The notes under the pieces were generated by a model. It was not told where the DNA came from. It did not search any database and was given only the letters and a program-made list of their open reading frames with translations. From Bacteriovorax sp. MedPE-SWde (GTDB lineage Bacteria; Bdellovibrionota; Bacteriovoracia; Bacteriovoracales; Bacteriovoracaceae): 64,000 nt of DNA. Position numbers and translations under genes: made by a program. Positions within the stretch are counted from its first letter, which is position 1, and each line of letters starts with the position of its first letter. The stretch spans positions 496,001 to 560,000 of the forward strand of contig MPCU01000002.1 in NCBI GenBank assembly GCA_001874305.1, read 5' to 3'. Below, piece after piece: positions 2,473 to 54,768 of the stretch.

Positions 2473-4806
2473 TTATGCAACGTCATCAAAGCTATTCTTT
2501 AGAGAAGAATCAGAGTTATCATGAGACACCTCAGCTTCGTTTTTATCACTACTCTTATCACCGAGTACAAGCGCTCTCATCTTATTGGCCAACTCAGAAA
2601 GGTGATTAGTTTCAACTCTTAAGTCTTCAGCTCGCCCTGCAGTTTCATCTGCAACGGCAGAGTTTTGTTGTGTAACACCATCAAGCTCTTGAATTGCATT
2701 TGTTATTTCATTAACCCCAGCAGACTGCTCTTTTGAAGAACTTGATATATCTCTTACCGCATTATTGACTTCTCCAAATGAAGAAAGAATTTCATCTAAA
2801 ATCTTATCACATTCGTCTGAGCGACTTATTCCTTCAGCAACGGTCTCTTTTCCACGCTCTGTAAGAGTAGACATTTTTCCTTTTGAGTTTTCTACAATTG
2901 CCTTAACTTGCTTCGTACTTGAATCTAAGAGTTCAGAGATTTCACCAGATGCTTTTCCACTCATTTGAGCAAGAGCACCTACTTCCTCAGCTACAACGGT
3001 AAAGCCCTTCCCATGTTCACCTGCTCTAGCGGCCTCGACAGAAGCGTTGAATGAGAGAAGCTTTGTCTGAAAAACAATATCATTAATGACTTTCGTTTTA
3101 TCCGCTATTTCATTAATAACCTTAATAATTCCAGAGATCTCTTCGTTATTCTTTTCAATAGAATCTATTAGAGACTCATTGTTAACGTGAATATTCTCTA
3201 TCGCACCCTTAACCTGGGATACAGACTCTTTGCCCATTTTAGCCTTATCACTAGTTAAGTTTGAAAGCTTCAATGTTTCTGCTGCTGTATTAGAACTCTT
3301 CTCAACCATGGCAGATATCTCATTAATTGAAGAAGAGGACTCTTGTAGACTTGCCGCCTGTTCTGTAGTTGCCTCTGATAGCTGTCCAGATTGTTTAGAT
3401 ATTCCACTGGCAGTTTCTAAGAACTTCGCAACACTTACACCAAGATCCTCTGTCATTTTAATTATTGAATTTGAAATTCCTTTCGCAAGAAAGAACGATG
3501 ATATAAGAATGATAACAATTGAAGCTGCGATCAATATAAAAACAAGAGTCTCTAATGAATATAGTGAGGCCAAGGCTTCGTCCTCGTCCATTTCTGAAAG
3601 TACGTACCAATTTAGACCATTAATCTCTAGAGGTCTAAAAGCACTTAGAACATTAACTCCTCTATAGTCTGGAAATATCTGAGCTCCGCTTTGTCCTTTG
3701 GTAACAAGGTCTGCTCCTTTTGTATCAACGTAACCTTCAATAGCTGTAGTATTCTTCGCTTTCATATATTTGATTTTAGATTCAGGGGTTTTTATTTTTT
3801 TCATCAGTTCAAAGAATCCATTTTTATCATCAACAATAAATCGAGATATACTTCTCATCGATTTGTCTTTCGCAATGATATAAGTTTCCCCAGAGTCCCC
3901 TTGTCCCTGTTTTTTCCACTGATTCTTACCTGTTAAAATATCATTAATCTTTTGAACTGGAATTTGAAATACAAGGTGTCCAACTCTCTTTGCTCCATCG
4001 TAGATAGGACTTGAAATAAATTGAGCAGGAGCATCATAACTCGGATAATATTTAGTCATTTCAGTTAAAGCTGAGTCACCTTTTTTTAATTTCATCGATC
4101 TCAAATATGCCTGAGCTAAGCCTGACTTAGAGTAAGGACCAGTTTTTAAATTTGTTGCAAAGTCCAGTTCTTTAAATACCGAATAAACAACTTCTCCTGT
4201 TTCTTCACTAATTAGGAAAATATCATAAAAGCCAAACTTATAAAGATAAGTTTGAAATGTTTCATGATATCGCAAATGATCCTTATTATATGAGGATTCA
4301 CTTCCAAGATTTAATAGTTTGTCTTTTTCTCCTACTGCATGAGAGTTAGAACTAATAAAGATATCTTGAAGTAAGATCTGATTGTCTGAGAGTTTTCCAA
4401 AAGTAGAATTAAACTCCTTAAACTTTAATCCACCATTTTCAGCTTCATACTTCTTTGCAAATGTTTCTTTATAATAAGAGATGAGTTTTGCTTTAGATGA
4501 AGCAAGGTCTTTACTTTGTTCATTTTGATAAGATTCATAAGATTTGTTAAAACCCTTTATTGCCTCGACCGTAAACTTATTCTGAGCAAGAGCAGATACT
4601 TGACTACTCATCGTATGAAAAAGCTCCTCTAATTGAAATGCCTTAGCTTCTCGAATTGCAACAAGCTTGTTCTTGGCCTCTGTCCTTATTGCTGTAGCAT
4701 TATTGTTAAACGTTACAACTGATATCGTTACTGCAGGTATTATTCCCGTCAGTAGGAACGAAATTATCAGCTTTAAACTCAGAGAAAGCTTGGCCATCTT
4801 GAACAT
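2473..4806 (-). CDS. Methyl-accepting chemotaxis protein with large periplasmic sensor
   Basis: 777 residues. One transmembrane helix at about 11-31, a long periplasmic region (about 35-415) of double-Cache type judging by length and the late TYIIAKDKSMRS and LNWYVLSEMD segments, and a second transmembrane helix at about 417-440. The cytoplasmic signalling domain has the conserved hairpin tip ([20 protein letters not shown]). No typical HAMP sequence is obvious after the second helix. The C-terminus (DDVA) lacks a CheR-docking WxxF pentapeptide. It should pass ligand signals to the CheA/CheW pair encoded 34 kb away. A sigma-28-like promoter lies immediately upstream. Confidence 0.93.
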   Translation of the reverse strand: MFKMAKLSLSLKLIISFLLTGIIPAVTISVVTFNNNATAIRTEAKNKLVAIREAKAFQLEELFHTMSSQVSALAQNKFTVEAIKGFNKSYESYQNEQSKDLASSKAKLISYYKETFAKKYEAENGGLKFKEFNSTFGKLSDNQILLQDIFISSNSHAVGEKDKLLNLGSESSYNKDHLRYHETFQTYLYKFGFYDIFLISEETGEVVYSVFKELDFATNLKTGPYSKSGLAQAYLRSMKLKKGDSALTEMTKYYPSYDAPAQFISSPIYDGAKRVGHLVFQIPVQKINDILTGKNQWKKQGQGDSGETYIIAKDKSMRSISRFIVDDKNGFFELMKKIKTPESKIKYMKAKNTTAIEGYVDTKGADLVTKGQSGAQIFPDYRGVNVLSAFRPLEINGLNWYVLSEMDEDEALASLYSLETLVFILIAASIVIILISSFFLAKGISNSIIKMTEDLGVSVAKFLETASGISKQSGQLSEATTEQAASLQESSSSINEISAMVEKSSNTAAETLKLSNLTSDKAKMGKESVSQVKGAIENIHVNNESLIDSIEKNNEEISGIIKVINEIADKTKVINDIVFQTKLLSFNASVEAARAGEHGKGFTVVAEEVGALAQMSGKASGEISELLDSSTKQVKAIVENSKGKMSTLTERGKETVAEGISRSDECDKILDEILSSFGEVNNAVRDISSSSKEQSAGVNEITNAIQELDGVTQQNSAVADETAGRAEDLRVETNHLSELANKMRALVLGDKSSDKNEAEVSHDNSDSSLKNSFDDVA

Positions 4807-35113: not shown

Positions 35114-36523
35114 TTAACTGGCCTCGATATTTTCATTTTTTTGCCAACTCAACTCGGCCATCTTGCTTGCAATATCGTCTTTGTGTTCAGCAAACATTAC
35201 AGCACCTATTCGTGCAGCTTCTTTTGGCATACCGTATACAATACAAGAGTCTTCGTCCTGCCCAATAGTATATGAACCTGCATTTTTCAGATTCAACATT
35301 TCGGCGGCACCATCTTTTCCCATTCCAGTTAGTATAACTGAAACAACATGCCTACTTTTAGTAAAGGGCACTACGGATTTAAACAAATAATCAACAGAAG
35401 GTTTAAATCTATTTACAGGAGCATCATCAGTAATTTTAACTTTAAAAACTCCGGACTCATTAACAACCTTCATCTGCTTACCACCAGGTGCTACTAAGAT
35501 TTTATTCTTTTCAACTAATTCTCCATCTACTGCTTCTTTTACTAAGAATGGACATAGACTATTCATTCTATCTGCAAAGGCTTTAGAGAATACAGGAGGT
35601 ATATGCTGAACAATAAGCATAGGAGGTATTTCTTTTGGAAGTTTCGTTAATATGTCCTTAAGTGCATTAGTCCCACCTGTTGACGAGCCCATTACCACAA
35701 GAGAGTCTAGATTCATTTTAGAGACAGGACGAGTACCAATCTTATTTAATGTAGCTAGACTTTTTTTAGAAAGCGATGCTTCTTTAATTTTCTCAATCAA
35801 TATTGGCGCTACAACAGGAAGTTGTGACACCTCTGGCTTTTGAATATAGTCAAAAGCGCCATGTTCTAGAGCTTCAAGAACAAGAGGCCCTTCTTCCATA
35901 CTAATAGAAGTAACCATAATAGTAGGTATATTATGCTTAGGACCAATGATTTTTAAAAGTTCAACTCCAGTCATCTCTGGCATATGTATGTCTAGAGTTA
36001 GAACATCTGGTTGATGTTCAATAATGAGAGCCTCAACATCACTAGGTTTTTCTGCCATTGCACAAACAGTGATCCCGTCAGCTTTAGAAAGTACTTTATT
36101 TAATAGGTTTCGAATTGTTCTAGAGTCATCTACAATAAGAACTTTGACATCTCTTTTTTCAACAACCTTAGTTTTAACAGGCTTTAATGATTTAGATACT
36201 CTAAGCTTCCCATTATCTGGAAAAAAGAGAACCTCAAACTGATCTTCTCTTAGAACTTTCTTAACTTCATTCTTAGTATAATTTTCAAGTAATGTAGCAA
36301 TACCATTTATAGCAAAACTCGGGCCTATAACTTTATAAGTCAGATCATCTTCTTGAAAAGTATCTTGTGCGATTTGAATCAAATTTTTGACTTGATGTCT
36401 ATCTGATCCATCAAGGATTGCGGCCATTGCCTTTCCTTGAGAATTTAAAGCAGTAACAAAAACTTGATTAGTAAGTTTAAAGTACTGCTGACTTCCATCT
36501 TTTATACTAAGTGTTTTTAGCAT
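35114..36523 (-). CDS. cheB: CheB methylesterase with REC and decayed CheD-like N-terminus
   Basis: 469 residues, about 110 longer than usual. Residues about 15-112 resemble CheD in order of elements (GKAMAAIL for GxMAH, later NGIATLLENYTKNEVKKVL, then NGKLRVSK), but lack the catalytic GLGSC Cys and the His, so it is probably a pseudoenzyme. REC domain at about 125-250 with phospho-Asp178. Methylesterase domain at about 272-460 with Ser281 in GSSTGG, His307 in VQHIP and Asp in TGMGKDGA, all intact. It demethylates or deamidates receptors when phosphorylated. Last gene of the che operon. Confidence 0.9.
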   Translation of the reverse strand: MLKTLSIKDGSQQYFKLTNQVFVTALNSQGKAMAAILDGSDRHQVKNLIQIAQDTFQEDDLTYKVIGPSFAINGIATLLENYTKNEVKKVLREDQFEVLFFPDNGKLRVSKSLKPVKTKVVEKRDVKVLIVDDSRTIRNLLNKVLSKADGITVCAMAEKPSDVEALIIEHQPDVLTLDIHMPEMTGVELLKIIGPKHNIPTIMVTSISMEEGPLVLEALEHGAFDYIQKPEVSQLPVVAPILIEKIKEASLSKKSLATLNKIGTRPVSKMNLDSLVVMGSSTGGTNALKDILTKLPKEIPPMLIVQHIPPVFSKAFADRMNSLCPFLVKEAVDGELVEKNKILVAPGGKQMKVVNESGVFKVKITDDAPVNRFKPSVDYLFKSVVPFTKSRHVVSVILTGMGKDGAAEMLNLKNAGSYTIGQDEDSCIVYGMPKEAARIGAVMFAEHKDDIASKMAELSWQKNENIEAS

Positions 36524-36535
36524 TTATATATTTCC

Positions 36536-38395
36536 TTACTTCTTACTCAAATAATCACTAGACATGTATGCGAAACTTGTAATCGGGACAACATCTGTTG
36601 CCACTTCAGAAAGTTCGCATTTAACGTTGATATCCTCTACTATAAGGTGAGCATTATCCCACTCTAGCATTTTCTCTCCAGCATGCTTAGACGCCTTTCC
36701 AAAAACAAGAAACGATGATCTCTTAGTTTTGTTCTCAGAACAAATTGGATCATATAGTTTCTTAAAGTCAGCGAGATAAACTGTATCTTTTTCAAAAGAA
36801 GATGGCATATCATCTAAGAGTTCCACTTTATACTTCAACTTCCTTCCTAACTCATCTTTAAATGCCGCCAAAATATTATCTTGCCCTTCAAAGAACATTA
36901 CAGTTGGTGGTTGAGAATCATGAAGCTCACTAAAAAAGAATTCAACTTTCTTTTGATCTGATATAGAAGAATAGATTGCTCTAAACTTAGTATCCGCATT
37001 TTCAATAACAATCTTATGCTCAAACTCTTTATCAACACTTGAAACATGACTTGTCTCAAACATTCTATCCATAAAGGCCACTTTGAGCTTTGTTTTAATT
37101 TCTTCACCACGCTCTAGAATGTTATTTAAAGCTGGTTTTTCGATAAAGTCAGATGCACCTGAACGCAAGGCCTTCATAGCAGCATCGGAGTCATCCCTCG
37201 ATGCCGACGAAATCATCACAACAGGAGGGTGTCCTTTTTTATAGTGTCTTTGTAGATAAGTCACACCATCCATTTCTGGCATATGAATATCTAGAGTCAT
37301 AATATCTGGTTTTAACTTTTCAACCATCTCATTTGCTTCAATACCATTCTTAGCAACACCTACAACTTCAAAACTTTGATCAGAGCTAAAAATCTTCTTT
37401 AATAAAGTTAAAATACTTGAAGAGTCATCGACACAAAGAACCTTTAACACGCTTGGCATTTCTGGCATTTTTGATACTGGAGCTTTAACTACAGGAGTAG
37501 GAGCAGCTTTCGATGTCGTTGTGACTGCGGGAGCAATTGGCTCGACGATTTTATGTTTATATATTGATGGTCCAACATTACTTATTTCTAACTTTAAACC
37601 ACCTAAAGACTCCGAAATACCACTAAAAAAGAATGAGGTATCATGCATATGGTTAAGAAAGTCTTTCATTATCTTTTCTATTTGCTCGGGTCTAAAATAA
37701 ATAAATACATTTCTACAGAATATAATATCAAACTTTTTTCCGACCATTTGAGACTTAAAATCGAGTAGGTTTAACGGTTTGAATGAGACGTTATTAGTTA
37801 GAGTTTTCTTCGCCTTTACGTACTCTGAGATATCCCCTTTCCCTCTTGCCCAGTGATCAGCAAGATAATTCATCGGAACACTTTTAATTTCTCTTCTATG
37901 GTATACACCATTCGTTCCGACCTTAACGGACTCGGGATCAATGTCACTACCAAAGATATGATACTTCATCGATGGATCAACTTTTGGAAGATAAAAGTCT
38001 AAAAACATTGAAAGAGAATAAACTTCTTGACCACGAGAACATGCAGCAGACCAAATATTTATAGTATTCTCACCTCTTGCTTTTACATCAGCGACGATTT
38101 GGGCAAGATTAGCTTTAACATATTCAAAATGGTTAAATTCTCTAAAAAAGAATGTATGATGTGTAGTTAACAAGGAAACAAGAATTCCTGATTCCTTCTC
38201 CATATTCTTTTCTAAGAAAGAAATATACTGTTCAGGTTCTTGAAGCCCAAGTTCAAGCATTCGCTTCTTGACCCTGGTTTGAACCATTAGAGCTTGCTTT
38301 TCCTCTAAAACATTACCTGATATTTTAGCAACAATCCCAGAGACCGTTTTAATAAGCAGGTCATACCCGCCAGTACGTTGTTGTGCAGTACTCAT
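36536..38395 (-). CDS. cheR: CheR methyltransferase fused to REC and a CheB-like pseudo-domain
   Basis: 619 residues. CheR at about 1-285: TTHHTFFFRE, SAM-binding WSAACSRGQEVYS, and FCRNVFIYF. A Pro/Ala/Thr linker (287-312) leads to a REC domain (about 316-440, Asp369 in TLDIHMPEMDG) almost the same as the REC of CheB. Residues about 465-619 align in pattern with the CheB esterase (AIYSS, PPTVMFF, AFKDELGRKL, VELLDD) but the GSSTGG and QHIP catalytic sites are replaced. So it looks like CheR plus a decayed CheB. It methylates receptors. Follows cheW and precedes cheB in the operon. Confidence 0.9.
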   Translation of the reverse strand: MSTAQQRTGGYDLLIKTVSGIVAKISGNVLEEKQALMVQTRVKKRMLELGLQEPEQYISFLEKNMEKESGILVSLLTTHHTFFFREFNHFEYVKANLAQIVADVKARGENTINIWSAACSRGQEVYSLSMFLDFYLPKVDPSMKYHIFGSDIDPESVKVGTNGVYHRREIKSVPMNYLADHWARGKGDISEYVKAKKTLTNNVSFKPLNLLDFKSQMVGKKFDIIFCRNVFIYFRPEQIEKIMKDFLNHMHDTSFFFSGISESLGGLKLEISNVGPSIYKHKIVEPIAPAVTTTSKAAPTPVVKAPVSKMPEMPSVLKVLCVDDSSSILTLLKKIFSSDQSFEVVGVAKNGIEANEMVEKLKPDIMTLDIHMPEMDGVTYLQRHYKKGHPPVVMISSASRDDSDAAMKALRSGASDFIEKPALNNILERGEEIKTKLKVAFMDRMFETSHVSSVDKEFEHKIVIENADTKFRAIYSSISDQKKVEFFFSELHDSQPPTVMFFEGQDNILAAFKDELGRKLKYKVELLDDMPSSFEKDTVYLADFKKLYDPICSENKTKRSSFLVFGKASKHAGEKMLEWDNAHLIVEDINVKCELSEVATDVVPITSFAYMSSDYLSKK

Positions 38396-38419: not shown

Positions 38420-38917
38420 TTATGCTGCTGATTTTAATCCACCAACGGCCTTTAAATCTTTAAGGTCGAGTACTTTTGCCACATCAAGAAGTACTGTTAA
38501 AGCATCTTCTTTTCTATATACGCCATTAATATATTCTGCATTTACTTGTGACTCAATTTCTGGCACATCATTTACTTCATCAGTAGTAAATGCCAATACT
38601 TTGTTAATCGAATCAACAACAATACCTAAGTTCATTCCATTAAGATCAACGATGATTACTGATTCTTCATGGTTATTCTCTTTAGGCTTAATCTTTAACT
38701 TTGTCCTCAGGTCTACAACAGATATAACCTGTCCTCTTAAGTTCATTATCCCTAAGAAGTGAGACGGCGCTTTTGGAATTGGCGTCGTTTCTGGAACTGA
38801 AATAACTTCTCTTACAGATAATAGTGGAAGTGCATAATCTTCTTCCCCCAGGCTAAACTCTAAGAAACGTTGTAATTCAGAATTTACATTTTCATTATTC
38901 AAATTTTCAATACTCAT
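38420..38917 (-). CDS. cheW: Chemotaxis adaptor CheW
   Basis: 165 residues. Typical SH3-like double-barrel fold: FSLGEEDYALPLLSVREVI at residues about 18-35, FLGIMNLRGQVISVVDLR and LGIVVDSINKVL. It couples receptors to CheA. AGGATG and other purines occur near its start. The gene begins one base after the cheA stop, so both are translationally linked. Confidence 0.93.
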   Translation of the reverse strand: MSIENLNNENVNSELQRFLEFSLGEEDYALPLLSVREVISVPETTPIPKAPSHFLGIMNLRGQVISVVDLRTKLKIKPKENNHEESVIIVDLNGMNLGIVVDSINKVLAFTTDEVNDVPEIESQVNAEYINGVYRKEDALTVLLDVAKVLDLKDLKAVGGLKSAA

Positions 38918-38918
38918 C

Positions 38919-41015
38919 CTATGCCACCCTTGCTATGTTTTCTTTAATAGAATTTTGATTCTTTTTTAGTGATCCACTATATAGTTCATTTAAATCTAGA
39001 ATAAATGACGGTTTCCCATCCCCTAAAATGGAACTTCCCATAAATCCTTTGCGACCTCTTATTTCATCACCAAGTTTCTTTATAACAACCTGCTGTTGAT
39101 GAAGAATATCGTCAACGAGAACTGCAAAATTAAAGTTCGCATTATGTATAATGATAGCGATCTTATCTATTGATTCACCATCATCCATCTTTCGACTAAG
39201 CGTTTGGCCTATATTAAAGACAGGGAGAACTTCACCTCTAAGGTTTAAACATTCTCCAAATCCAGTAATTTTATTCATCATTTCTTTTGTTGGCTTCAGT
39301 GATTCATGTACTTGAGATAGTGGAATAATATACTTCTCTCCACCAACTCTGATAACCATTCCATCGATGATTGCCATTGTTAATGGAAGACAAACTTTAA
39401 AAACACTCCCTTTACCCATTTCAGTCTTAACTTCAATAGTACCTGACATTCCCTCAATATTAGTTTTTACAACATCCATACCAACACCACGGCCAGATAC
39501 TTCAGTTACCTCTTCTTTTGTAGAGAAACCTGGGTGAAAAATGTATTGAATCATTTCATGAGGGGGAATTTCCTTATTAGGATTAATTAATCCACACTCA
39601 ATCGCTTTCGCTCTAATGATATTATGGTCAATTCCACCACCGTCGTCATTTATCTGAATTACGAGATTATTACCTTCATGGAATGCTCTGATTTCAACAT
39701 TTCCAACTTCATTCTTTCCGGCCTTAATCCTACCATCTGTCGACTCTAGACCATGATCAACAGCGTTTCTCACGATGTGAACAAGTGGATCTGAAAGATT
39801 TTCTAAAACTGTTTTATCTATCTCTGTATCTTCACCAACAAGGTGAAGCTTAACTTGCTTATTAAGAGTTTTTGATGTGTCTCTAACAATACGATTCATC
39901 TTTTGCAGAGTTGCTTTAAGAGGAACCATTCTCAATGACATAGAGATTTCTTGAATTTCTTTTGAAAGCTTTCCAAGTTGTGCTATAGACTTATTTGCCA
40001 GTCCATCTTGAATAGCAACAAATCGTCTTTGATCAAGAACCGTTTGTAAAATCACAAGTTCACCAACTACGTTATTAAGTTTTTCAACTCTAGAAAGAGC
40101 TACTCTAATACTCTCATCTTCGGATTTTTTCTTAGGTGGTTTTTCTTTTTGAACGGGTAATTTTGGTGCTGATTTTATATCTGTTACATTATTAACAGGA
40201 GCTGCCTCAGCAACTACAGGTTCAGTCTCAACGACAGTTTGAGCAACAATATCCTCGCCCTTCTTAATTGTTAAACCTTCATCTGCGTCATTTTTTGGTG
40301 CTGTCTCAATCCCAAGTTGTTTAAAGATTTCTTCGTCACTTAGGCCAATCTCTCTAAGAGACTCTATCGCACTATTTGAAATTTCTACTTCTTCATTACT
40401 TTCTTCACTTACTGTTTCTGCAATTACTTCTTCAGCTGCTTCACCATCTTCTTCAAAATCTGAATCATCAAACATGACAGCATCTGGAACTTCCTCAAAA
40501 TTTTCTGCAGCAGGAGTTACGACCTCGACAGGGTCTTCTTCAAAGTATTCTGCAGCAACTTCTTCGACTTCTGCAACAGGAGCTTCTTCTACTTGTGCTT
40601 CGGCCTGAACTTCAGCTTCTCCAACAGTGTCTCCACTGACAACAGAAATAATTTTAGCGATGATAGCGTCATTATCAAATGTCGCTTCAATATCATCACG
40701 TAGTGTATTTATCATGTGCGTAATGTGATCATTACACTCTAAAAGAATTGTGACGACAAAGTCATTAACCTGCATTTCTCCAGTTTTTAACTTAAGAATT
40801 AGGTTTTCCATTTCATGTGTAAATTCGGCCACTTCACCAAAGCCAACAGCTCTTGATGTACCCTTTAAATTATGTGCTAATCTAAAAATTTGATCGAGAA
40901 GGTCCGTGCTATCATTATCATCTTCAAGCGCTAAAAACGCCTGCTCTGAATCCTCCAGCAGTTGTAGCGACTCTTCTAAAAAGTCTTCCTTCAATTCTCT
41001 TTCAAAATCTTCCAT
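38919..41015 (-). CDS. cheA: Chemotaxis histidine kinase CheA
   Basis: 698 residues from the ATG at 41015, favoured because GAGGA is 6 bases upstream; an ATG at 41021 lies only one base from it. P1 HPt domain with phospho-His in AHNLKGTSRAVGF (near residue 48). A long Glu/Val-rich linker (about 130-290), where the CheY/CheB-binding P2 would be, appears unstructured. P3 dimerisation about 300-370, P4 ATPase with N-box HIVRNAVDHGLES and GRGVGMDVV, P5 CheW-like domain from about 545. First gene of cheA-cheW-cheR-cheB with a sigma-28-like promoter. Confidence 0.95.
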   Translation of the reverse strand: MEDFERELKEDFLEESLQLLEDSEQAFLALEDDNDSTDLLDQIFRLAHNLKGTSRAVGFGEVAEFTHEMENLILKLKTGEMQVNDFVVTILLECNDHITHMINTLRDDIEATFDNDAIIAKIISVVSGDTVGEAEVQAEAQVEEAPVAEVEEVAAEYFEEDPVEVVTPAAENFEEVPDAVMFDDSDFEEDGEAAEEVIAETVSEESNEEVEISNSAIESLREIGLSDEEIFKQLGIETAPKNDADEGLTIKKGEDIVAQTVVETEPVVAEAAPVNNVTDIKSAPKLPVQKEKPPKKKSEDESIRVALSRVEKLNNVVGELVILQTVLDQRRFVAIQDGLANKSIAQLGKLSKEIQEISMSLRMVPLKATLQKMNRIVRDTSKTLNKQVKLHLVGEDTEIDKTVLENLSDPLVHIVRNAVDHGLESTDGRIKAGKNEVGNVEIRAFHEGNNLVIQINDDGGGIDHNIIRAKAIECGLINPNKEIPPHEMIQYIFHPGFSTKEEVTEVSGRGVGMDVVKTNIEGMSGTIEVKTEMGKGSVFKVCLPLTMAIIDGMVIRVGGEKYIIPLSQVHESLKPTKEMMNKITGFGECLNLRGEVLPVFNIGQTLSRKMDDGESIDKIAIIIHNANFNFAVLVDDILHQQQVVIKKLGDEIRGRKGFMGSSILGDGKPSFILDLNELYSGSLKKNQNSIKENIARVA

Positions 41016-41051
41016 TTCCATTCCTCGGATTTTTCTTAATCTTCTAAGGAC

Positions 41052-41254: not shown

Positions 41255-44200
41255 TTAAGGTTGATGATTTTTTAAGGTCTCAATCCATCTAAGGCGAGGA
41301 AAATCACCTTCTACCCAGTAGAAGTGCTCGGCCATTAAACTAAATGTTTCACAGAAAACAGGCGGATTTACAAAACAAGATACTGTTGCTGTTCTAGCGG
41401 TACTCGTGTTGTCAAAGGCATTGCCATCTCCAGAGATAACATTAGTAAATGTTCCACCTCCAGACCCATAGAAGGCCGAAGGTGTTCCAGAGAATTTCAG
41501 CATATTAGTTGCAGCATCTATATTTGACGTAGTACTAATACCTACAATACCACCACAGTTTAATGAACAAGCAGATCCATCGCCCACAGTCGATACAGTA
41601 TTTAATCCTGAAGTAACAGCTTGTCCTGCTATTCCTCCAACGGTGTCATTACCATCAACAATACCAGAGTTAACAAGAGCAGCTCCAATTATATTCGTTG
41701 CAGAACCGACAACTCCCCCCACAATATCTGAAGAGGACTGTCCTGTTACAGAAGTCGCAGAATCGACATTAATATTAAAGAGAGTCATATTTGTTGCACC
41801 ACCGGTTAGAGCGATTGACCCAGCAACACCTCCAGTCCCAGCAGAACCGGTACTAGAAATGGCCGAGCTAACTATTTTGATATCTTCTATTTCTACATTA
41901 TCATTAGTACTTGATGTTAAACTCCCTATAAGTCCACCAGCTTTACCAGGTCCAGTCCCCGTTAATGTAGAGTTCCAAAGTTGGACACCATAGACACCTA
42001 TCCAACCACCTGTGGTGTTTACATCACCAGCAAGTCCACCGACATGTCCTGATCCAGAATTAGAGAGGTTTATGTTTTTCAAATATAGAGTTCTAAATCC
42101 TGTCGGTGTTTCATGATCAATTTCAGCACCATCTGTCATATTTCTAAAAAGACCGAGGTTTGTAGAAGAAGCTTCAGCTTTAGTCACATTTAGAATTGTA
42201 TTATCATTTCCTTTAAACTTTCCCTTAAACTCTGCCCATGGCGTAAACAAGGCAGGGTTATTTTGAAAGTCCAAATCACTCAGTAGAATATAATGGGCGC
42301 CTTTTATTTTAAACGAAGGCTCAATTAATTGAAGCTTTCCAAATAGTTCCCAGTCACTAATTGAACTTAAACCAAATGGTTTAGTCACTGAGCCAATATT
42401 ATCTATATAGCGATTAAAGAACTTATCTGAGAACTGTCGGTATTTTCCATCTCCTGCTAACTCCCAATTTATATGAGCAAATGAAGGAGCGGCCGAGCCA
42501 CCTGTCGGAGTAGTATTAGTATTTAAATTCGCTAAACTTGTATATGACATACATGTGTTAGTTCCACCGTTATCTACAAGAGCACAAGAGTTTGTAGCAA
42601 TTGTGTTTGCTGTACCAATAGCTGTTTGAGATGCTCCCCCCACAGATGCATAGGAATTAGTAACATTACAAGCAGTACAATTACCCACTAAGAGACCATC
42701 AGTTGCAGCGTTTGCTCCAGAGAGGATTCCTTCAAAGTAACTATTGTCTAGCGTAGCTGCACCATAGGATCCAATTAGACCTCCTGCTCCTGCAGAACTT
42801 GTAGAGTTAACAGTCATTGAAGAGTGAACAGAACTTATATTAAAAGTTCCTCCTGAGGCAATGATTCCTCCACTGGTTCCACCGTTACAAGTTACAGCTC
42901 CCTTAGTTGACGAGTAATCAATAGATCCTGCCCCTAGACCAGTTCCTACCACTCCTCCACAACTTGTCTTTCCAGAGATTGTTCCTTCATACTTAACCAT
43001 TCTAAGGTTTCCTGAAGTCGACGCCGAGACTTTTCCAAATATACCTCCGACAGGACCAGCACCACCGGCACCAACGAAAGCGTTTATATCTACCCGAGAA
43101 TTCACAAGCTCTGCATTAAAAATAGTAGCGTGTGTTACATTACCGGCGATACCGCCAATATCTGGATGTGTAAGAGTATTCTCAGTAAGGTTAATCACGC
43201 CTTGTGCTCCAATTGAAGTGAAATCCATAGCTTCTGCTAAACTACCAACAACTCCGCCAATTGCCTGCGCAGGATGATCAATTGTTATATTTAATCCTTC
43301 AACTTCAATAGAGTTGAAACTGACATTAGTCATCGTTTTTCCTACAACTCCACCTAAGTCTCTTGTTTTTTGAAGCGTATTTCCGGCCTCAGAATAAAAA
43401 TTAAATCCGTTTACAGCAACGCCTCGAAGAGGTCCTTCTAACCTTCCAAAGACTGCTCCAACTTCTCTTATATCACTTCCGCCTGTACCATCTAAAGTTA
43501 TTGAAGAGTTAGTTATCTTTATACCTTTTACTTCACCTGTGGATGTTGAGAAGTTTCCACCAACAAGCCCTATTCTTTCTATGAAAGTCGTACCTTCATT
43601 ATTTATGATATCCATATGAATATTATCAAGCTCGATGTCCTTTATTTTGATTGTAGTATTTGCACCAATTTTTCCAAATAGGATTCCTGTTCCAAATCCA
43701 GCATTTGTTCCGTAATCAAAAACACCTGTTGCGTTGGCGATTCGCAAATTCTCGATATTTCCGTCTATCGACCCAAAGAGTGCACCATTACCAGTGTTCG
43801 ACCCAGTATAATTATGATTAAAATTTGAAACTGTCCTTCCATTTCCATCAAGTTCACCACCACTTGTAATATTCATCGGACTTGATAGCGCAAGGTCCTC
43901 ACCAAGAAAATCGATGTCTTGACCTAAAACAAACTTATTATTAGAGTTTGATATAAAGGCAGTTTTAAATTGTGTAGGATTACAAATAACGTACCATGTT
44001 CCAGACCTTAAATTTACAGTATTAGACATAACGGCATTAGTCAGATGTGCTCCCTGACAGTAATTTGATTTTACAAATACGTTATTTTTATTTTGATAGA
44101 AACTGACATTGGTTTTAGTCTTGTAGTCCGGTTTCATATTAAATACTTCAACGGGGCCTGCGCAACTGGGTTGAGCAAATGACTTAATGATAAAAGTCAA

Positions 44201-44857
44201 AGGTGCAGCAGGGTCATTAAATATTGGAATCCTTAGGTTTGTATTATGACTCTGATCAAGAACACTTCCATAGTTCTGACAAGTAGACTTAAGCCCCGTA
44301 TCGATTGAGACCGCACCTGATTCGTCAAACTCTGGAATTATAATTCTAAATGACTGAGTTGCTCCTTTTACACAATCATCTGCAGTATTTTCTGCTTCAT
44401 TTTCATTTATTGCATATTGATTATTACAACTTATTAAAGTTAACGGATTGAACTGACCAACATCTCCTTGTGAAACAGGTAGACCAAATAAGTCATCGGC
44501 CTGACATCTCTTCTTAACGAGATTGAATGCAATATCCTGATCGCCCCCTCCGAGCTCAACGTTATCAACACCTGCACACTTTACAGTCCCTTCAAGAAAA
44601 TTTGCTCCGTCCCACGCAACAGTAACAAAACTCCAAGTCCCATTTTCAAGCTCTAGTACTTCTCCTGCAGAAATAATTCTCTTAGAGATATATGTTCCTG
44701 GCCGATCCTCGTTCTTACCAAAGACCATGAGACCACCAGATGAAAATGGACCAACTGCAAAGTTCATTTTAAAGGTTGCATTAGTCTTTCCCTCTTGTCC
44801 TCCACAGGACACTAAGAAGCTAAGTAAGGCGATAAGTGTAAGTAATTTTTTCATCAA
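41255..44857 (-). CDS. Giant lipoprotein with GLUG-like repeats
   Basis: 1200 residues. Lipobox LVSC near residue 18. From about residue 340 onward there are many repeats of the form GG(I/V/L)(V/A)G followed about 15-25 residues later by N/S-rich strands (for example GGIAGNVTHA, GGVVGSLAEA, GGLAGDVN, GGIAGQAV), a pattern of beta-helix GLUG or adhesin-like passenger domains. The C-terminal 50 residues (HFYWVEGDFPRLRWI) match the end of many such proteins. Likely exposed at the cell surface and involved in attachment. GAGGA precedes the ATG, and a sigma-28-like promoter lies upstream, so it may belong to the motility regulon. Confidence 0.85.
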   Translation of the reverse strand: MMKKLLTLIALLSFLVSCGGQEGKTNATFKMNFAVGPFSSGGLMVFGKNEDRPGTYISKRIISAGEVLELENGTWSFVTVAWDGANFLEGTVKCAGVDNVELGGGDQDIAFNLVKKRCQADDLFGLPVSQGDVGQFNPLTLISCNNQYAINENEAENTADDCVKGATQSFRIIIPEFDESGAVSIDTGLKSTCQNYGSVLDQSHNTNLRIPIFNDPAAPLTFIIKSFAQPSCAGPVEVFNMKPDYKTKTNVSFYQNKNNVFVKSNYCQGAHLTNAVMSNTVNLRSGTWYVICNPTQFKTAFISNSNNKFVLGQDIDFLGEDLALSSPMNITSGGELDGNGRTVSNFNHNYTGSNTGNGALFGSIDGNIENLRIANATGVFDYGTNAGFGTGILFGKIGANTTIKIKDIELDNIHMDIINNEGTTFIERIGLVGGNFSTSTGEVKGIKITNSSITLDGTGGSDIREVGAVFGRLEGPLRGVAVNGFNFYSEAGNTLQKTRDLGGVVGKTMTNVSFNSIEVEGLNITIDHPAQAIGGVVGSLAEAMDFTSIGAQGVINLTENTLTHPDIGGIAGNVTHATIFNAELVNSRVDINAFVGAGGAGPVGGIFGKVSASTSGNLRMVKYEGTISGKTSCGGVVGTGLGAGSIDYSSTKGAVTCNGGTSGGIIASGGTFNISSVHSSMTVNSTSSAGAGGLIGSYGAATLDNSYFEGILSGANAATDGLLVGNCTACNVTNSYASVGGASQTAIGTANTIATNSCALVDNGGTNTCMSYTSLANLNTNTTPTGGSAAPSFAHINWELAGDGKYRQFSDKFFNRYIDNIGSVTKPFGLSSISDWELFGKLQLIEPSFKIKGAHYILLSDLDFQNNPALFTPWAEFKGKFKGNDNTILNVTKAEASSTNLGLFRNMTDGAEIDHETPTGFRTLYLKNINLSNSGSGHVGGLAGDVNTTGGWIGVYGVQLWNSTLTGTGPGKAGGLIGSLTSSTNDNVEIEDIKIVSSAISSTGSAGTGGVAGSIALTGGATNMTLFNINVDSATSVTGQSSSDIVGGVVGSATNIIGAALVNSGIVDGNDTVGGIAGQAVTSGLNTVSTVGDGSACSLNCGGIVGISTTSNIDAATNMLKFSGTPSAFYGSGGGTFTNVISGDGNAFDNTSTARTATVSCFVNPPVFCETFSLMAEHFYWVEGDFPRLRWIETLKNHQP

Positions 44858-52581: not shown

Positions 52582-54768
52582 TTATATCTCTTCAAATCTT
52601 GGATCATCTGCATCAGGAATTTCAGCACCGACTACAGATTGAAGGTTCTCTTTAGATTCAACTGGCTTTGCCTCTACCGGAGCTTGCTTCTTAACAGGCA
52701 GGTCAATAACATTATTTTCTTCTTTTACTTTCACAGTTTTTCTTTCTTTGAGACCTGCTGTTGGTTTACCACCGACGACTTCATTTTCTAACGTCTCAAT
52801 TACTTCTTTTAAATATTCAGTTTCTTTATCTAATTGTTCTGAACACTTTAGAGTTTGAAATGCGATATTAGAGTTTTCATTTGTAAGATCTTGTAATTGG
52901 TTCATGGCCATAGAGATATTAGATACCCCAGACTCTTGTTCTTTAGTCGCTGTTGAAATCTCATTGGACATATTACTTACGACCTTAACCCCATCAACAA
53001 TTTCTTCAAGCGCCTTATCACATTGAACTGTAATCTCAATTCCTTGTTCAATCTTATCTTTAGAAGTCACCATGATTTTTTCAATGGCAGTTTGGTTATC
53101 GGCAACGATAGTTTCTACACGAGAAATTGATTCTCCTAGAATACCACTGATTTCCTCCGCGGCCTTTCCAGACATTTGTGCGAGATTACCAACTTCTTCA
53201 GCAACAACAGCGAAGCCTTTTCCATGTTCACCTGCTCTCGCGGCTTCAACAGAAGCGTTAAAAGAAAGTAGCTTTGTCTGGAAAACAATATCGTTAATGA
53301 CTTTAGTCTTTTCAGAAATTTCATTTATTACGCTGACGATTTCATTAATTTTCTGATTACCTTCAGCAGTAGTTGTTAGGATATTTTCATTTGAATCTTT
53401 AATACCATTCATAGAGTCCACAACTTTCGCAACAATCTGCTTACCAGTATTGGCACTCTTTTCACTCTTTGATGAAATTTCAACAGAGCTTCCGGCATTT
53501 TGAGCACTCATCTTTACCATTTGAGAAACTTCGTCAAGCGTAGATGCCGTTTCCTGAATTGCAGATGCCTGAGAAGTAGACATTTCATTTACCTTTCCTG
53601 ACATTTCATTTAATTGACTTACAAATTCAAAAGTTCTACCGGCACTTGCCCTTAATCCTTCAATAACTTCAATTAACTGAGCATAAAGTCTTGAGACAAT
53701 AAATATAGATACAAAACAACAAACAATAAATGCTACCGCCAAAGTTATATAGAATACTTTTTGAAGAGCAATGATTTCACTAAAGGCGTCACTTGGATGC
53801 ATATCAACAACAAGGCTCCAACCTATCTTATCCAAGAACCTACGGTTCTTTATTGGTCCATAGGCATAGATATCTTTTTCGTCTAGGCCGTTAATGTTGT
53901 CAGAAACTTTCGTTCCTCTCTTTCCAGCCTTAAGTTCAGTAATTACTGGATTATTGCTATTGAATAAATCTTTTTTAAGATTAAATCCCCCAAAATCATG
54001 AATTATTTTTGATTCAGTTCCAAGAGAAGTTCTACCTAGAAAGGAGATTGGCTTCCCTTCTTTATTTATAAGCTCAATTTCAGCTGATTCCATTCCATTA
54101 CTTGCAAGAACTTTATAAAGTCCTTTCATTTCATTCTCAACCCACCTCATATTTGAGAAGGTACCAAGAACAGCAATAGGATCACCGTATTCATCTTCAA
54201 TAAGAGTTCCAAACATCTGTCCCATACGGTCACTACCGTACATTTTCTTCGCAACAGTATCTAGTTGAACCCTACCAACATACGCTCCAAAGATTTTCTT
54301 TTTGAAATCTTCTACATACTTACCATTCTTCGTATTTTTAAACCAAGTTTCATTATTAAAATCGACAGTCTTTAGAAAGTCAGTTTTAAGCTTCTTTCCT
54401 CCAGAATCAATTGAACTTGAAGCAACTAATTTACCTTCAAGGCTAACTAGAACAAGATAATCAAGATCTGGAAATAGTGTGATCAACTCATTTAGAATAA
54501 AGTTCGCACCTTCAACATTTTTAAGTTCTTTAAGATCTTTGTTTCGAGCGAACGCTTGGATATTATTATATTGAGCATAGAAGAGTTGAGATATAGTTGA
54601 TGAAAGATTGTCGTAGTATAAGCTAAAACTATCAATTTTCCCCTGTCTCTGATCTCTAATACCTTTTTCAAACTGTACAAAGACTACAGCAGTTAAAAGT
54701 AGAACCATCCCAATTGAAATGAAGTAGAGTTTCGTTTTAAGTTTAAAATTAAGCTTTGCTTTAGACAT
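52582..54768 (-). CDS. Methyl-accepting chemotaxis protein (second receptor)
   Basis: 728 residues. First transmembrane helix about 14-30, periplasmic Cache-type sensor about 35-330 (with [18 protein letters not shown] and [21 protein letters not shown]), second helix about 338-362, then signalling domain with [25 protein letters not shown]. After about residue 660 an acidic/Lys linker replaces a methylation tail; no CheR-docking pentapeptide. A sigma-28-like promoter precedes it and a terminator follows, so it is monocistronic. Ligand unknown. Confidence 0.93.

Follow-up and report, generated by a model that had tools for sequence, protein, structure and literature searches.

Within the window, by which we mean the whole stretch of 64,000 nucleotides of Bacteriovorax sp. 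MedPE-SWde DNA that was analysed, positions 36536-38395 of the minus strand were confirmed to hold one open reading frame of 619 residues. A Pfam search of the window's open reading frames gave the gene order CheA, CheW, CheR-REC-psiCheB, CheB, all in the same direction (Table 1), CheR-REC-psiCheB being the 619-residue protein, in which a CheR domain is followed by a receiver (REC) and by a C-terminal domain designated here psi-CheB. CheA is presumed to be the phosphodonor for the receivers of both this protein and the neighbouring CheB. The genome, whose nearest named relatives are Bacteriovorax/Halobacteriovorax, has 3 CheR genes, 2 CheB genes and 8 receptor genes with the Pfam MCP signal, and CheD is not detectable in it. 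A further open reading frame of the window (1200 aa, positions 41255-44857, minus strand) has a lipoprotein-like start (SFLVSCGG) and repeated glycine-rich GGVVG-like segments.

Table 1. Chemotaxis genes and domains around the CheR-REC-psiCheB gene, in window positions.
Feature	Positions	Strand	Basis and remarks
CheA kinase	38919..41021	-	Hpt, H-kinase_dim, HATPase_c and CheW domains
CheW	38420..38917	-	PF01584, E=4.8e-36; upstream of the CheR-REC-psiCheB gene, same cluster
CheR methyltransferase domain, residues 1-285	37541..38395	-	PF01739, E=2.6e-46
CheB-type receiver (REC), residues 317-437	37085..37447	-	PF00072, E=7.2e-23 at residues 319-423
Linker and psi-CheB, residues 438-619 (fold from ~461)	36539..37084	-	AF2, Foldseek, hhalign, PDB sequence profile
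psi-CheD, residues 1-122 of the neighbouring CheB	36158..36523	-	AF2 pLDDT 94.2; CheD fold; no GSC
Receiver of the neighbouring CheB	35819..36148	-	PF00072, E=7.5e-22
CheB methylesterase domain of the neighbouring gene	35162..35698	-	PF01339, E=2.9e-56; SxTGG, QHxP and GMGxDG intact

The CheR domain scores 157.9 bits with PF01739, for a cut-off of 27, and its catalytic and SAM-site motifs (FFR, GQEVYS, SDID and CRNVFIYF) vary little or not at all among 20 orthologues (alignment A1), as expected from a sequence-only reading of this DNA which had described them as intact. The receiver matches PF00072 with 81 bits, and the residues of its acid pocket (D323, D324), its phospho-accepting aspartate (D369), its switch serine (S397) and its lysine (K420) are invariant in 20 orthologues. 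The same reading had called this receiver nearly the same as that of CheB. As to its type this is correct, since two NCBIfam CheB models reach 118.9 and 100.1 bits on it versus 60.7 for the best CheY model; the alignment to one NCBIfam CheB model, PRK12555, moreover continues unbroken from the receiver into the C-terminal region (residues 318-542). Near-identity to the neighbouring CheB receiver was not found, the two sharing 37% identity and 61% positives over 110 aa. A recent copying of that adjacent receiver onto CheR was also considered and is unsupported by the REC tree, which has only 110 columns.

Downstream of the receiver, no Pfam family, PF01339 included, matches the protein above its cut-off. 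The region was modelled with AlphaFold from alignment A2, which consists of 65 orthologous C-terminal stretches, yielding for residues 438-619 a mean pLDDT of 89.4 and a pTM of 0.83. When this model was compared with the PDB using Foldseek, ranks 1-8 were all CheB (best 1chd, E=7.8e-6), and VIA-align placed four CheB entries first, at Z 16.9, 16.6, 16.1 and 15.8, with the next fold following at 9.1. Profile comparisons led to the same family: hhalign matched psi-CheB to the operon CheBs at 89.5% (E=2e-6) and, in the reverse direction, at 92.9% over 156 columns, with a score of 45.2 versus a maximum of 22.1 among 100 column shuffles, and an HMM of A2 searched against all PDB sequences returned CheB at the top (1chd, E=0.0086). 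Individually, 4 of the 65 members match PF01339 at E<=1 (best 6.4e-5), which makes it the Pfam family matched by most of them. Searched against 369 genomes of the phylum, the psi-CheB profile strongly recovered its own family and then gave weak matches to frames of CheB-protein lengths, including CheD-REC-CheB frames of 523-525 aa. A CheD-like nature of the domain was rejected (hhalign probability 0.09). The sequence-only reading had noticed a likeness in outline to the CheB esterase and had staked it on the predicted structure, which proved to be CheB-like.

Despite this fold, the esterase signature is gone. The motifs SxGG, QHx and GMGxDG, each found in 50/50 operon CheBs, occur in 0/65, 2/65 and 0/65 psi-CheB orthologues, respectively. 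The column of the catalytic serine is not conserved (Ser in 21/65, Gly in 21/65) and that of the catalytic histidine is occupied by glutamate in 47 of the 65 (E503 in the present protein). The proposed absence of the Ser and His sites is therefore borne out across the family, with the nuance that the Bacteriovorax sp. MedPE-SWde protein has a serine, S477, in the unconserved Ser column. As the second half of psi-CheB aligns weakly to CheB by sequence, the exact replacement of the catalytic aspartate is uncertain; in the profile alignment, psi-CheB has nothing that corresponds to the RHKPSVDYLF-bearing stretch of CheB. The protein is thus a CheR with a true receiver, followed by a domain which is CheB by fold and not by its defining catalytic motifs, and both fold and motif loss support its identification as CheR, receiver and catalytically dead CheB esterase.

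Conversely, psi-CheB has conserved residues of its own, namely S607 (65/65), P604 (64/65), T606 (62/65), E587 (61/65), R472 (60/65) and D588 (59/65). Between close relatives, its pN is 0.18-0.21 versus a pS of 0.65-0.76 which is near saturation. Judged from these sequences, the domain is under purifying selection and is not decaying, so that the term "decayed" used in the earlier reading is appropriate for catalysis only. Its own conserved residues and low pN argue that psi-CheB is retained for a non-catalytic use and, from the alignments, we infer that the former active-site face takes part in it.

The neighbouring CheB carries a second pseudo-domain, which the sequence-only reading had not noticed. 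Its first 122 residues have no Pfam match and could have been an extension unrelated to Che proteins; this idea was discarded, since the top Foldseek match of their model is the CheD 2f9z_C (E=9.5e-4; Z 10.2) and hhalign aligns them to CheDs of the phylum at 92-94% (E 1.5e-7 to 5.4e-7; shuffles <=0.5%). A profile search of the PDB sequences with the psi-CheD alignment did not find CheD. The GSC motif, which contains the catalytic cysteine, is present in 0/58 psi-CheDs versus 30/30 CheDs, the latter set having itself been gathered by GSC. The phylum has many CheD-REC-CheB fusions that are intact, 20 of them among the loci examined. At 62 loci (57, plus 4 cut by a contig end, plus 1), the gene for CheR-REC-psiCheB is directly followed by that for psiCheD-REC-CheB, and in three relatives (L094, L102 and L161, the last with a diverged middle part) both proteins form one chain in which psi-CheB directly precedes psi-CheD. 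Exceptions include L050, where CheR-REC-psiCheB has no adjacent CheB and psiCheD-REC-CheB lies on a separate contig, and L062, where psi-CheB is kept, CheD-REC-CheB stands in place of psiCheD-REC-CheB and psi-CheD was not found in the genome. A mirror-tree comparison of psi-CheB with psi-CheD gave a weak coupling signal (partial r 0.124, a value reached in 27/2000 permutations).

The search for the same architecture in relatives showed it to be present in many, the psi-CheB family occurring in ~97 of the 369 genomes and in 14 families (profile E below 1e-10). The phylum also contains CheR-REC-CheB proteins that are single chains and whose catalytic motifs are intact (L154-L160), one of them, L154, in the same genus; the sequence-only reading had not mentioned such fusions. 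Two copies lie close together in L156 and likewise in L158, where one copy has no QHx match. In the CheR tree, every receiver-fused CheR belongs to a single group (SH-aLRT 95); a CheD-CheR protein on a long branch and the interrupted frame of L096 belong to it as well. L155, L159 and L160 branch next to the CheR-REC-psiCheB clade, directly outside it (SH-aLRT 98 for the clade), and the L154 CheR falls inside it with lower support. Similarly, the REC tree, built on few columns, places L155, L159 and L160 as the sister group (92/89) instead of the neighbouring CheB receiver. Given these intact-motif chains and their position beside CheR-REC-psiCheB in the trees, psi-CheB most likely has its origin in a bifunctional CheR-REC-CheB whose esterase was active, as far as sequence relationships can tell. 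Losses are also seen. L106 and L113, on the Bdellovibrionaceae branch, encode CheR-REC with nothing after it, showing that psi-CheB is dispensable in some genomes; L108 and L109 encode single-chain CheR-REC-REC-CheB proteins missing both pseudo-domains, a fusion which possibly arose through one deletion spanning the gene border. L096 was examined as a natural split into CheR and REC-psiCheB and set aside, the interruption being a single in-frame stop within the CheR region on a metagenome contig. L142 (G111) has a 406-aa frame with a CheD domain followed by CheR, on a long branch in the CheR tree.

CheR adds methyl groups to receptors and CheB removes them, and in the E. coli circuit kinase feedback acts on CheB only, not on CheR. 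For the protein described here, we favor, with modest confidence and largely by analogy, a role as a phospho-regulated receptor methyltransferase. An ancestral CheR-REC-CheB would have lost its esterase triad once a separate CheB, here psiCheD-REC-CheB, took over demethylation, and the receiver and psi-CheB would gate CheR under the control of CheA. CheA would phosphorylate the CheR-linked receiver as it does the CheB receiver, phosphorylation would open or close the REC/psiCheB pair in the manner of CheB, and the state of this pair would alter the access of CheR to the receptor, or its hold on it. The part of psi-CheB would then be one of docking and gating, with no catalysis of its own, and kinase feedback would reach methylation as well as demethylation. 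This proposal draws on two precedents. In CheB, the unphosphorylated receiver occludes the esterase face, phosphorylation relieves this occlusion, and the surroundings of the active site bind the receptor (PMC8609364), while in FrzF a fused TPR domain restrains CheR and limits the receptor sites that are methylated (PMC2535941). The invariant phosphorylation residues, the nearly constant adjacency of the partner genes and the three fused chains are circumstantial evidence for gating or for tethering of CheR to CheB, the two functions put forward in the sequence-only reading. A more tentative extension, to which we would give somewhat less than an even chance, is that CheR-REC-psiCheB and psiCheD-REC-CheB may form a two-protein module in which CheA controls both arms via matched receivers and the dead domains dock or gate.

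The main rival, which we regard as rather unlikely, is that psi-CheB and psi-CheD serve as a scaffold by docking either to one another or to the partner enzyme, which would hold CheR and CheB in one complex, phosphorylation being secondary. The 62 loci at which the two genes directly follow each other would fit such a function, as would the single chains in which the pseudo-domains adjoin and the direct CheR-REC/REC-CheB fusions of L108 and L109, from which both are missing. This joint loss is, however, a weak argument, because one deletion across the gene border removes both domains at once; moreover, the mirror-tree signal is weak and L062 has a psi-CheB in a genome where psi-CheD was not found.

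Two other explanations concern psi-CheB itself. It might still be an enzyme with an altered active site, for instance with E503 in place of the histidine, together with the conserved E587-D588 and T606-S607. These conserved polar residues, some of which align with or lie near the former active site, speak for this reading, but the nucleophile column is a serine in only a third of the family (21/65) and the RHKPSVDYLF-motif segment of CheB has no counterpart, and we consider this improbable. Still less credible, and in our opinion very hard to sustain, is that psi-CheB would be a neutral, functionless remnant of the old CheR-REC-CheB fusion: relatives with intact motifs do exist in the phylum and the domain has been lost in L106 and L113, but a frame kept open in so many genomes and families, invariant residues unrelated to catalysis and a pN far below pS all disfavor it.

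Regarding the receptors, many MCPs of these genomes have similar acidic-aromatic C-terminal tails such as RFEDV, RFEEI, GFEDV, EWEDL and SFDDVA, 10/38 of them when a strict pattern is applied. MCPs with such tails are encoded in the regions 2671-3267 and 52882-53481 of the window, on the minus strand (loci L152 and L148), and at loci L147, L175, L176, L180, L182, L184, L186 and L191. These tails are similar to the NWETF tether, whose usual consensus has W at position 2 and F at position 5 (PMC7390727), and differ from it by an aliphatic last residue. They are candidate docking peptides for CheR, CheB or the pseudo-domains.

In the open-licence papers searched for CheR-REC, CheB-CheR or CheD-CheB fusions and for pseudo-enzymes of the CheB type, a CheR-REC-pseudo-CheB architecture was not found described, an absence which is weak evidence; each of its three elements, a fused CheR, a fused receiver and a pseudo-enzyme, is of a kind already known. 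The presence of a receiver and a pseudo-esterase on CheR across much of a mostly predatory phylum suggests that kinase feedback acts there on both arms of adaptation. In addition, the intact-motif chains, CheR-REC-psiCheB and the relatives without pseudo-domains constitute a natural series in which an enzyme domain becomes a regulator.

Among known proteins, CheB (PF01339; 1CHD, 1A2O, 6YMZ, 3SFT) shares with the present protein the order of receiver, linker and esterase as well as the esterase fold over residues ~461-619 (Z 16-17), from which psi-CheB differs by its missing catalytic motifs and RHKPSVDYLF segment, its position behind CheR and its own invariant residues. The single-chain CheR-REC-CheB proteins (L154-L160) have the same domain order, with related CheR and REC domains, but their esterase retains the catalytic triad motifs. 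CheR-TPR fusions such as FrzF and WspC likewise join CheR to a C-terminal regulatory domain; this domain consists of TPR repeats, with no receiver or psi-CheB and no phosphorylation site of its own, whereas CheR-REC-psiCheB has no Pfam TPR match and ends in a CheB fold. On the side of the partner protein, CheD (PF03975; 2F9Z) has its fold in common with psi-CheD at the start of the adjacent CheB; psi-CheD differs by the loss of GSC and by falling below Pfam detection. Finally, CheV (CheW-REC) and other receiver-carrying chemotaxis proteins also have a phosphorylatable receiver on a chemotaxis protein that is not a kinase; their effector is different, and in CheR-REC-psiCheB the receiver is placed between two adaptation-enzyme domains.
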